From Candidatus Caccoplasma merdavium (GTDB taxonomy: Bacteria; Bacteroidota; Bacteroidia; Bacteroidales; UBA11471): a DNA stretch of 64,000 nucleotides. The notes under the pieces were generated by a model, which ran no database searches, was not told where the DNA came from, and saw only the letters and a list, made by a program, of their open reading frames with translations. The stretch lies in NCBI GenBank assembly GCA_018715595.1, contig DVLI01000026.1, positions 253,966 through 317,965 of the forward strand. Direction: 5' to 3'. The position numbers and the translations under genes were made by a program. Below are positions 32,722 through 37,120 of the stretch, in pieces. The stretch's first letter is position 1, and each line of letters opens with the position of its first letter.

Positions 32722-33555
32722 ATGCCGAATAATATGTATAAAAACATTCTTTTGATTCTCCCGTTGTTCCTCATCTTTTCTCAACCATCTGCTTCACAAC
32801 GCATCAAAGGCAGCGACACGGTTCTTCCTCTCACCCAAAAATGGGCCGAAACATTCATGCACGAATATCCAAATACATCGGTCACCGTCACCGGTGGTGG
32901 CAGCGGAGTGGGCATTTCGGCCATTATGGAAGGGACGACCGATATTGCCATGTCTTCCCGGCGCATCAAATTCGGAGAGAAAATGAAACTGAAACAAAAC
33001 AGCACCGAGGTCAACGAAGTCATTGTAGCTTACGATGCATTGGCAGTAATCGTCAATCCGTCAAATCCGGTCAACAATCTCACGCGAGAAGAATTGGAGG
33101 CCATTTTTCGGGGGAAAATAACCAACTGGGAAGAAGTGGGCGGCCCCGATGCCAAAATCATCGTATATTCACGGGAAACCTCATCGGGCACATACGAATT
33201 TTTCAAAGAAAGCGTGCTGGAAAACAAGAACTACACCAACAATATCCTTTCCATGCCGGCAACAGGAGCCATCATACAATCGATAAGACAAACCAAAGGA
33301 GCCATCGGTTATGTGGGCATGGCCTACCTCAACCCTTTTGTTAAAGCCATCAACGTATCATACGACGGTGGAAAGAACTATGTTCACCCGTCGATAGAAA
33401 ACGCCCGGGCAAAAAAATATCCCATCGTGCGGCCGCTTTACTATTATTACAATAAAAAAGACGAAGAAAAAGTCCGTCCTTATATACAATTCATCACATC
33501 AGAAAAGGCCGAAAACATTTCTTTGGAATTAGGATTCATTCCCGCCACATTATAA
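32722..33555 (+). CDS. pstS: Phosphate-binding protein PstS
   Basis: A 277-residue periplasmic phosphate-binding protein of the high-affinity Pst ABC importer. A signal peptide ends near residue 25, and the mature part begins RIKGSDTVLPLTQKWAE. Phosphate-site segments include GGGSGVGISA (58-67) and SRETSSGTYEFF. The second-lobe motif GKITNWEEVGG lies at 131-141. No lipoprotein cysteine is seen. It is the first gene of pstSCAB-phoU, and the downstream gaps of 4-17 bases support one transcript. Confidence 0.94.
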   Translation: MPNNMYKNILLILPLFLIFSQPSASQRIKGSDTVLPLTQKWAETFMHEYPNTSVTVTGGGSGVGISAIMEGTTDIAMSSRRIKFGEKMKLKQNSTEVNEVIVAYDALAVIVNPSNPVNNLTREELEAIFRGKITNWEEVGGPDAKIIVYSRETSSGTYEFFKESVLENKNYTNNILSMPATGAIIQSIRQTKGAIGYVGMAYLNPFVKAINVSYDGGKNYVHPSIENARAKKYPIVRPLYYYYNKKDEEKVRPYIQFITSEKAENISLELGFIPATL

Positions 33556-33565
33556 AAAATTCTAT

Positions 33566-34759
33566 ATGAAAAAATGGATTGACTATATTGCAACGCGGTT
33601 GTTTACCGTCAGCGGCTTTGTAACCAGCGCGGCCATTTTGTTGATTATTGGTTTCTTGTTTACCGAAGCAGTCGGTCTCTTCAACAATCCGATAATCGAA
33701 GACGGATATACGCTCGCCGTCAACAAAGAAAACAAAATCAAATCGTTAAGTGCAGAGCAGATAAAAAACCTCTTCGATGAAGAAATACCCAACTGGAAAG
33801 AGTTGGGAGGCGAAGACATTCCCGTGCAAACATTCCGGCTCGAAGATTTGTCCCAATATTATTCCGAAGAAGAACTCGGAGCCGAATATGAATATGCGGG
33901 GAATAAAATAGGAGACATCATTCGGCAAGAAAAGGGCATGATTGCTTTTGTCCCCAAAAACCTGGTTCAAAACGAACCCGGCATACGCTTGATTGAAGAC
34001 AAAAACATTCCGGTAAAAGATGTCTTGTTGGGCAAAGAATGGTACCCCACCGCCACACCGTCACCCATTTTCGGAATCCTGCCATTGCTGTACGGAACTC
34101 TTTGGGTAAGTTTCTTTGCCATACTGATAGCTCTTCCTTTCGGGCTTTCCATAGCCATATACATGTCAGAAGTGGCCAATCCCAAAATCAGAAAAATATT
34201 GAAACCGATTATCGAACTTCTCAACGGCATACCTTCTGTCGTATATGGATTTTTCGGATTGGCCGTCATCGTTCCTTCCCTGCAAAACGTCTTCGACCTC
34301 CCTGTCGGAGAATCCGGACTGGCCGGAAGCATCGTTTTGGCCATCATGGCTCTGCCTACCATCATCACCGTTGCCGAAGATGCCATGCGCAGTTGCCCAA
34401 GATCCATGCGAGAAGCCAGTTTGGCACTCGGTTCCTCACAATGGCAAACCATATACAAGGTCGTCATACCGTTTTCGATATCGGGTATCACCTCAGGTGT
34501 CGTTCTGGGCATAGGCCGCGCCATCGGCGAGACAATGGCCGTGCTTATGGTGACCGGCAATGCGGCGGTCATACCGACATCGATCATGGAACCGCTGCGT
34601 ACTATCCCCGCTACGATTGCAGCCGAATTGGGAGAAGCCCCGGCCGGAGGGGCCCATTACCAATCCCTGTTCTTGCTCGGTGTCATTCTATTCTTTATCA
34701 CATTGTTCATCAACTCCTGCGTGGAAATCGTTTCGGCACGCAACAAAATAAAAAAATAG
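33566..34759 (+). CDS. pstC: Phosphate permease PstC with inserted PstS-like segment
   Basis: An inner-membrane permease subunit of the Pst importer. At 397 residues it is about 100 longer than the common PstC. TM1 (about residues 16-38) is followed by a periplasmic insertion of about residues 42-145, after which the BPD_transp_1 core runs to the end, with the EAA loop AMRSCPRSMREASLALGSSQ. The insertion contains LSAEQIKNLFDEEIPNWKEL (61-80), which parallels PstS residues 120-139 (LTREELEAIF...NWEEV), and later EKGMIAFVPKNL, which parallels TKGAIGYVGMAYL of PstS. It probably helps dock or pass on phosphate. Confidence 0.93.
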   Translation: MKKWIDYIATRLFTVSGFVTSAAILLIIGFLFTEAVGLFNNPIIEDGYTLAVNKENKIKSLSAEQIKNLFDEEIPNWKELGGEDIPVQTFRLEDLSQYYSEEELGAEYEYAGNKIGDIIRQEKGMIAFVPKNLVQNEPGIRLIEDKNIPVKDVLLGKEWYPTATPSPIFGILPLLYGTLWVSFFAILIALPFGLSIAIYMSEVANPKIRKILKPIIELLNGIPSVVYGFFGLAVIVPSLQNVFDLPVGESGLAGSIVLAIMALPTIITVAEDAMRSCPRSMREASLALGSSQWQTIYKVVIPFSISGITSGVVLGIGRAIGETMAVLMVTGNAAVIPTSIMEPLRTIPATIAAELGEAPAGGAHYQSLFLLGVILFFITLFINSCVEIVSARNKIKK

Positions 34760-34763
34760 TATT

Positions 34764-35645
34764 ATGAGTTTCAACACCACCTCTTTTATCAAACGGAGGA
34801 AATTAGCTCAAAATTCGGCATTCGCTTTATTCCGGATTTTCAGTTACAGCATTGTCGTCATACTCTTTTTTATCTTGGGATTTATCCTCATCAAAGGGTT
34901 TGGTGTCATCAACTGGGACTTTATCACCCAAGCTCCCAGCGACGGCATGACCAAGGGAGGAATCTGGCCGGCCATCGTCGGGACATTTTATTTGATGATT
35001 GGCAGCGCCATATTTGCGTTTCCCATAGGAATCATGAGCGGCATATACATGAGTGAATATGCCCGTTCGGGGAAACTGGTCAATTTCATACGGACCATGA
35101 CCAACAACTTGGCCGGCATACCGTCGATTGTATTCGGCCTCTTCGGAATGGCATTTTTTGTCAATCGGTTAGATTTCGGCGACAGCATTTTGGCCGGCTC
35201 CCTTACATTGGGACTGTTGGCACTTCCCATCATTATTCGCACGACCGAAGAAACATTCAAAGACATTCCGAACCACTTCAGAGAAGGAAGCCTTGCTTTG
35301 GGTGCCACAAAAGCCCAGACCATCTGGAATGTACTGCTTCCGATGGCCACTCCCCGTGTCATAACAGGATTGATTTTGTCTCTGGGACGAGTTTCGGGCG
35401 AAACAGCTCCTATCCTATTCACTTGCGCGGCCTATTTTTTACCCAAATTACCCACGGGGATTTTTGACCAATGCATGGCCCTGCCCTATCACCTTTACGT
35501 CGTAGCCACCAGTGGAACCGACATCGAAGCCCAAGAACCCATTGCTTACGGGACGGCTTTTGTCCTCATCGTCATCGTTCTCATCATGAATCTGGCCGCC
35601 AACGGCATACGCAACCACTTCGACAAAAAAATAAAGTTAAAATAA
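34764..35645 (+). CDS. pstA: Phosphate permease PstA
   Basis: A 293-residue inner-membrane permease, the partner of PstC. It has six predicted helices, the conserved FYLMIGSAIFAFPIGIMSGI and NNLAGIPSIVFGLFGMAFF segments, and the cytoplasmic EAA loop HFREGSLALGATKAQTIWNV that contacts PstB. It starts four bases after the pstC stop and has normal length. Confidence 0.95.
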   Translation: MSFNTTSFIKRRKLAQNSAFALFRIFSYSIVVILFFILGFILIKGFGVINWDFITQAPSDGMTKGGIWPAIVGTFYLMIGSAIFAFPIGIMSGIYMSEYARSGKLVNFIRTMTNNLAGIPSIVFGLFGMAFFVNRLDFGDSILAGSLTLGLLALPIIIRTTEETFKDIPNHFREGSLALGATKAQTIWNVLLPMATPRVITGLILSLGRVSGETAPILFTCAAYFLPKLPTGIFDQCMALPYHLYVVATSGTDIEAQEPIAYGTAFVLIVIVLIMNLAANGIRNHFDKKIKLK

Positions 35646-35660
35646 CAAACAAGAAACATC

Positions 35661-36413
35661 ATGGACAAAATAAAGGCAACCAATGTAGATTTTTATTATG
35701 GGAATTTCCATGCCTTGAAAAATATATCCTTAACAATCCCCGAAAATCAAGTCGTGGCATTTATCGGCCCATCGGGTTGCGGAAAATCGACTTTTCTGCG
35801 TCTCTTCAACCGCATGAACGACCTGATTCCCAATACAAGGCTGACCGGCAATATCTCCATCGACGGACAAGACATCTATGACAAGTCGGTCGAAGTAGAT
35901 GTTTTACGGAGAAACGTAGGCATGGTATTCCAACGCCCCAATCCTTTTCCCAAAAGCATCTTCGAGAATGTGGCCTATGGTTTGCGTGTCAACGGGGTCA
36001 AAGACAAAGAATACATTTCACACAAAGTGGAAGAAGCCTTGAAAGGTGCCGCTTTATGGGAAGAGGTGAAAGACAAGTTGAAAGAGTCGGCTTATGCTCT
36101 CTCGGGGGGCCAACAACAACGTTTGTGCATAGCCCGGGCCATGGCCGTGTCACCATCGGTTCTGCTGATGGACGAACCGGCCTCGGCCCTCGACCCCATA
36201 TCGACGGCAAAAATCGAAGAACTGATATGCGAATTATGCAAGCAAACAACGATTGTCATCGTTACCCACAGCATGCAACAAGCCGCTCGCGTCAGCCACA
36301 AAACAGCATTTTTCTACTTAGGAGAAATGGTAGAATATGACGATACGAAAAAAATCTTTACAAATCCTTCCAAGGAAGCCACACAAAATTACATTACAGG
36401 ACGTTTTGGATAA
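35661..36413 (+). CDS. pstB: Phosphate transporter ATPase PstB
   Basis: A 250-residue ABC ATPase that powers PstCA. Walker A is GPSGCGKS (36-43), the signature is [15 protein letters not shown] and Walker B is [12 protein letters not shown]. The [18 protein letters not shown] segment is typical of PstB. It lies 15 bases after pstA and 17 before phoU. Confidence 0.97.
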
Positions 36414-36430
36414 AATAAAAGCAATTTATT

Positions 36431-37120
36431 ATGGTAAAATTTGTTGAAAACGAACTTATCGCGATAAAAAATGAAGTGAGTGACATGTGGTTGCTGGTGC
36501 AACAACAGCTCGAAAATGCTTTCGAAGCCTTGCGCAACCACGACGAGGAGTTGGCAAACAGCGTCGCCTCAAGAGAAAAACGGGTAAATGCATTCGATTT
36601 GAAAATCGATAGCGACATTGAAGACTTCATCGCATTGTATAATCCGGTGGCCGTAGACCTCCGTTTTATGTTGGCCATGTTGAAAATCAACAACAACCTC
36701 GAACGCATCGGCGATTATGCCGACAGCATAGCCAGGTTTGTGGTAAGAAATGCCATTTCCGATGCAGACAAGCAACTTTTCAATGCCAAAGAATTGACCG
36801 ACATGTATGAACAAGTGCTGCAAATGTTCACGACAACATACAAAGCATTAGAAACGTCCAATGTATCTTTGGCCAAGTCGGTCATCGAGAAAGACGATCT
36901 TTTGGACTCTCTCAACAAAAAAGCACTCGACAAGCTGGCCGAGTATGCAAAAGATTACCCCTCGGCCATTCGGTTCTGTCTGGAAATAGCCGCCATTTTA
37001 CGCAAACTTGAACGTACCGGCGACCACATCATCAACTTGGCCGAAGAAACCGTGTTTTATATCGACGCCGAAGTGTTGAAACACCTCTACTCGGCTGCGC
37101 CATCGATTCATGAAGATTGA
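36431..37120 (+). CDS. phoU: Phosphate signalling protein PhoU
   Basis: A 229-residue all-helical protein with two PhoU three-helix repeats. Each repeat carries the metal-binding motif: NLERIGDYADSIA in the first and KLERTGDHIINLAE in the second. PhoU restrains the PstSCAB transporter and damps PhoR/PhoB signalling when phosphate is plentiful. No phoR or phoB gene is in the window. Confidence 0.95.
   Translation: MVKFVENELIAIKNEVSDMWLLVQQQLENAFEALRNHDEELANSVASREKRVNAFDLKIDSDIEDFIALYNPVAVDLRFMLAMLKINNNLERIGDYADSIARFVVRNAISDADKQLFNAKELTDMYEQVLQMFTTTYKALETSNVSLAKSVIEKDDLLDSLNKKALDKLAEYAKDYPSAIRFCLEIAAILRKLERTGDHIINLAEETVFYIDAEVLKHLYSAAPSIHED

Follow-up and report, generated by a model that had tools for sequence, protein, structure and literature searches.

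A PstS-like half domain without the phosphate loop lies inside the phosphate permease PstC of many Bacteroidia

The phosphate permease PstC encoded in the window (the whole stretch of 64,000 nucleotides that was analysed) carries an insert of about 100 residues between its first transmembrane helix (TM1) and the permease core. We are almost certain that this insert is lobe 2 alone, derived from a phosphate-binding protein of the PstS type. Judged by the residues it has kept and lost, the lobe should be ligand-less and inactive as a phosphate binder. Our leading explanation, to which we give a probability of roughly 0.4, is that the tethered lobe aids or tunes the docking of PstS, by analogy with the P2 domain of MalF.

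The host protein is a bona fide PstC. It scores 285 bits against TIGR02138, above the curated cut-off of 196.45, and its full-length AF2 model has E. coli PstC as best structural match (9k3y_B, Foldseek E 2e-13). Residues 60–307 of E. coli PstC align with the core, which from E. coli residue 60 on corresponds to residues 157–388 here. Because this alignment starts only at the core, some 100 additional residues sit between TM1 and the core. Arginine R318 corresponds to the E. coli transport residue R237 and is invariant here; transport is presumably carried out by an ordinary and working core together with a separate PstS. According to the positive-inside rule the N-terminus is cytoplasmic, so the loop after TM1 is periplasmic. 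From this topology, the EAA-like loop (residues 283–297) would lie on the cytoplasmic side and the insert on the periplasmic side.

Table 1. Positions of the pst genes in the window and of the features of PstC and PstS discussed in the text.
Feature	Position	Strand	Evidence
pstS, 277 aa	32722-33555	+	TIGR02136 256 bits, PF12849 176.6 bits
Lobe 2 of the operon PstS	about 33031-33339	+	
Phosphate loop R151-T157 of the operon PstS	33172-33192	+	
pstC (397 aa), permease of the phosphate ABC importer, carrying the lobe insert	33566-34759	+	ORF; TIGR02138 phosphate_pstC
TM1 of PstC, residues about 13-36	33602-33673	+	long helix 2-40 in AF2 model
PstS lobe-2-like insert, PstC residues 46-147 (~100 residues)	33701-34006	+	sequence, profile, AF2, Foldseek
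Scaffold motif LSAEQIKNLFDEEIPNWKELGG common to PstS, PstC residues 61-82	33746-33811	+	L61, I74, W77, G81, G82 conserved
Erased phosphate-loop site FRLEDLSQ, PstC residues 90-97	33833-33856	+	aligned with PstS YSRETSSGT
KGMIAFVP strand, PstC residues 123-130, counterpart of PstS KGAIGYVG	33932-33955	+	hhalign, BLASTP
Ordinary PstC permease core, residues 157-392	34034-34741	+	E. coli PstC alignment; PF00528 70.7 bits
pstA, partner permease, first loop without insert	34764-35645	+	ORF, sequence
pstB, ATPase	35661-36413	+	ORF with Walker motif
phoU-like gene	36431-37120	+	ORF, position 3' of pstB

The ORFs of the window run in the order pstS-pstC-pstA-pstB-phoU on the + strand (Table 1), and in Bacteroides finegoldii the gene in the equivalent order is annotated as phoU. 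A record labelled as a B. finegoldii plasmid (L211, NZ_OY725936.1) carries glnS, pstSCAB-phoU and riboflavin synthase, and may be a chromosomal contig under a plasmid label. The genome from which the window was taken has two Pst systems. Its second pst operon (contig C5:50954-52687; L002, L004) is ordinary, with an E. coli-type PstS of 352 aa and an E. coli-like PstC of 302 aa that has no insert.

The original prediction placed half of a PstS at positions 33686-34000, which correctly correspond to PstC residues 41–145 of the ORF 33566-34759 (+). The extent that it gave in residues, 42–145, is about right, the homologous stretch running from about 46 to 147. Except for a single letter, the order of motifs also agrees with the prediction, with LSAEQIKNLFDEEIPNWKELGG...KGMIAFVP in PstC and LTREELEAIFRGKITNWEEVGG...KGAIGYVG in PstS of the same operon. 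In BLASTP, the insert matched this PstS with an E value of 1e-9 (30% identity over 94 aa), and a profile of 22 inserts compared with one of 22 PstS gave a clear match over 90 columns (hhalign, 98.6%, E 1.3e-15). It is lobe 2 that is matched. When the insert profile was compared with the PDB, the top matches were all PstS (4exl at 6e-13, 4q8r and 4gd5 at about 2e-12), and within the window's own genome it matched only PstC itself and the operon PstS. The family model PF12849 (PBP_like_2) scored 27.3 bits with whole PstC and 28.4 bits with the insert, narrowly passing its gathering cut-off of 27, and covered profile positions 83–184 of 267 only; it matched 39 of the 39 PstC homologues scanned at E ≤ 0.1. 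The PstS family model TIGR02136 (NCBIfam) matched PstC with E 8e-9, under its whole-protein cut-off.

Structure prediction gave the same answer. Modelled on its own with AF2, the insert (pLDDT 75 overall, 82–92 over most of the lobe, low at both ends) has the lobe-like order beta-alpha-alpha-beta-alpha-alpha-alpha-beta-alpha-beta, and the first 27 Foldseek matches were all phosphate-binding proteins (best probability 1.00, E 7.8e-6). The fold predicted for the insert is thus closest to PstS and not an unrelated one. TM-scores against phosphate-binding proteins were moderate (0.45–0.57 by query) with a large rmsd, most probably owing to disorder at the ends and to the two lobes of the targets. 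The likeness of the insert to PstS is far beyond chance. Sequence, profile and predicted fold, together with the lack of the insert in ordinary PstC including the second one of the same genome, bear out the idea that a fragment of a binding protein was captured and tied to the channel.

We compared residue conservation between 28 main-clade inserts and 52 PstS of Bacteroidia. Both groups conserve N56, L61, I74, W77, G81, G82 and V87 (consensus I). The ligand residues are a different matter: R151, E152, S154, S155, G156 and T157, each found in 100% of the 52 PstS, are gone from the inserts, and the phosphate loop that they form (R151-E-x-S-S-G-T157) was missing from every insert examined. Conserved in inserts only are D71, F90, R91, D94, G105 and P130. 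Set against a functional PstS-type protein, the insert has only lobe 2, with neither lobe 1 nor the R-x-x-S-S-G-T loop. With the phosphate loop lost, it should neither bind phosphate in the manner of PstS nor itself hand over phosphate.

The insert is not peculiar to one genome. Among 148 genomes sampled from the phylum, insert-bearing PstC occurred in the class Bacteroidia only, and in 43 of 296 genomes of this class, from many families, the insert profile matched an ORF of PstC length. In a search with full PstC, 65 of 197 class genomes had a PstC at E ≤ 1e-40; 31 of these 65 matched along the insert, and the remaining PstC were mostly ordinary proteins of 280–320 aa. The insert-bearing group within Bacteroidia is large, and it includes common gut bacteria. 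Outside Bacteroidia, we found no insert-bearing PstC in the phylum sample or in the listed plasmid records; for other phyla (Gram-positives, Proteobacteria etc.) the comparison comprised only PstC encoded on plasmids and the E. coli protein in the PDB. An apparent case in Monoglobus (88% query coverage) was rejected, since tblastn had bridged the end of a PstS and a 284-aa PstC.

In a tree of the PstC core from which the insert columns were excluded, insert-bearing PstC formed one clade (SH-aLRT 93, quick search), and a lobe tree set 39 inserts apart from 96 PstS lobes (support 100). Both trees are consistent with a single ancient capture followed by vertical descent, which is the simplest reading. 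The insert had been likened to half of the PstS in the same operon, and this stands, the half being lobe 2; the insert is not a recent copy of that PstS, but an old insert shared among Bacteroidia. A recent duplication of the operon's own PstS was rejected, because many families have the insert and the inserts group apart from the PstS lobes. Most insert loci have a gene for a TIGR02136-type PstS in the operon itself or close by; in Parabacteroides-like genomes it is unlinked.

Divergent PstS paralogues of one family (f72), with the loops FRMPDLSGT and FSLENFNDT, join the inserts in a further tree (support 98). We do not claim them as donors of the lobe, since paralogues and inserts are both long-branched and few columns were available. 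In three loci of this family (L212 at 23-2155, L213 and L214), a complete PstS-like domain, its phosphate loop changed to FSLENFNDT, lies at the C-terminus of a region of about 450 residues that resembles TPR and a PD40-type propeller. Genomes of f72 also encode several stand-alone PstS paralogues with altered loops (L215-L223; FRMPDLSGT, RLPDESGT, YSxEDFSDT), which are possibly binding proteins of other function and possibly kin of the insert donor.

What might a dead lobe do on a permease? In the explanation that we favour, the pseudo-lobe would sit at the PstS docking site on PstC/PstA, contact PstS and enhance or adjust its productive docking when loaded with phosphate, leaving transport proper to the core and the separate PstS. 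The altered docking would change the transport state, read out via PhoU/PhoR. The position of the insert, in the loop adjoining the docking face in the AF2 model and in the E. coli alignment, is consistent with such a role. Insert-less PstC alongside a TIGR02136-like PstS occurs elsewhere (for example in genomes G220 and G245), so transport as such presumably does not require the lobe. According to a published hypothesis (PMC5775613), PhoU/PhoR sense the conformation of PstSCAB, and the pseudo-lobe module could tune this presumed Pho signal as well. We hold it possible, if somewhat doubtful, that the insert is a dedicated regulatory module, a dead half-PstS that competes or cooperates with PstS for the docking site and so would control, in Bacteroidia, the rate of transport as well as Pho signalling.

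As an autoinhibitory lid, a rival to the docking aid, the pseudo-lobe would mimic lobe 2 and cover the docking surface or the pore entrance until a closed PstS displaces it. The insert does retain the scaffold of the docking-involved lobe without its ligand site, and in other importers empty substrate-binding proteins compete with loaded ones for the permease (PMC11065425). However, only core residues, and not those of the docking surface, are clearly common to insert and PstS, and the short linkers make the reach of the lobe uncertain. We consider a lid unlikely.

A structural or adaptor domain that stabilises PstC or binds some other envelope protein, without touching PstS, would account for the newly conserved positions listed above, which are unrelated to PstS function, and for the unrelated insertions found in the same loop of other PstC. 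Yet no specific partner is indicated, and it would then be a coincidence that the domain stems from one lobe of the very binding protein that serves this importer; this explanation, too, has a low probability in our judgement.

The loop after TM1 of PstC looks like a recurrent insertion site. Apart from the lobe, PstC proteins of 720–740 aa (L142:736-2922, also L146-L149) carry a large domain in this loop, which in L142 (729 aa) is matched by several WD40/beta-propeller models, all under the cut-off. Other PstC (L109, L112, L116 and relatives in families f21 and f23) have long low-complexity loops after TM1, many of them with repeated YNPD motifs. The long loops of f21 and f23 (for example L109 and L116) were checked as candidate inserts of the binding-protein kind and are not PBP-like.

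Purifying selection maintains the lobe across much of Bacteroidia. In 17 independent pairs of close relatives, the dN/dS ratio was 0.090 for the insert and 0.018 for the core, compared to 0.020 for lobe 2 and 0.061 for lobe 1 of PstS. Taken with the loss of the loop, the value of 0.090 indicates that selection keeps the lobe, though not for phosphate binding in the style of PstS. The insert changes at about five times the rate of the core; this speaks against a docking role in so far as it also fits a loosely constrained structural spacer. The faster rate would suit a vestige as well, a drifting fragment that was fused into a permissive loop and is tolerated there, as would the strongly diverged inserts of some families (L198, L199; G331, G243, G268). 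We nevertheless find a vestige quite improbable, given the low dN/dS, the frame that is intact and the fold that is predicted across many families, the invariant residues that the inserts keep, and the absence of a clear insert loss within the clade from the trees made. A sensor lobe that still binds phosphate or another anion while fixed to the channel is very improbable: R91 adjoins the position of the PstS ligand arginine and is conserved in 89% of main-clade inserts, but it is absent from diverged inserts, acidic residues occupy the former S-S-G-T loop, and a lobe 1 that could close the cleft is lacking.

A literature search, with most subscription journals outside its scope, found no published description of the PstC insert, which is weak evidence; since Pfam detects the domain, the architecture is already visible in databases. 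One practical caution follows for annotation: PF12849 matches in PstC are not binding proteins.

Compared to E. coli PstC (TIGR02138; 9k3x/9k3s, chain B), the protein has the same core, EAA-like loop, transport arginine, predicted fold and pstSCAB-phoU operon, but about 20–30 residues separate TM1 from the aligned core in E. coli, and here the lobe is added to them. With PstS (TIGR02136/PF12849) the insert shares the lobe 2 fold and the scaffold residues N, L, I, W, GG and I, while being one lobe only, with neither signal peptide nor phosphate loop, fused inside a permease. The long PstC of L142 also has a domain between TM1 and core, of unrelated fold. MalF-P2 is an Ig-like domain in the TM3-TM4 loop and is not derived from a binding protein. 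Like the insert, it is a large domain that interrupts a periplasmic loop of a single permease subunit in a type I importer, but the loop and the ancestry differ, and we claim no homology between them. To judge by the titles of Daus 2009 and Grote 2009 (cited in PMC3328499), MalF-P2 interacts with MalE through the cycle; by analogy, contact with the binding protein would be expected for the insert. GlnP and OpuA likewise have binding-protein-derived domains covalently tied to the permease, but these are complete, two-lobed and active, bind the ligand and take the place of a free binding protein, whereas the PstC insert is a ligand-less half domain and a free PstS remains encoded in the operon. 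As a rule, permeases of type I ABC importers either contact their binding protein only transiently or have a complete one attached. To find half of a binding protein, conserved yet ligand-dead, built into the permease is unusual and, if our reading is true, would make the coupling of docking, transport and Pho signalling accessible to genetics in common gut bacteria.
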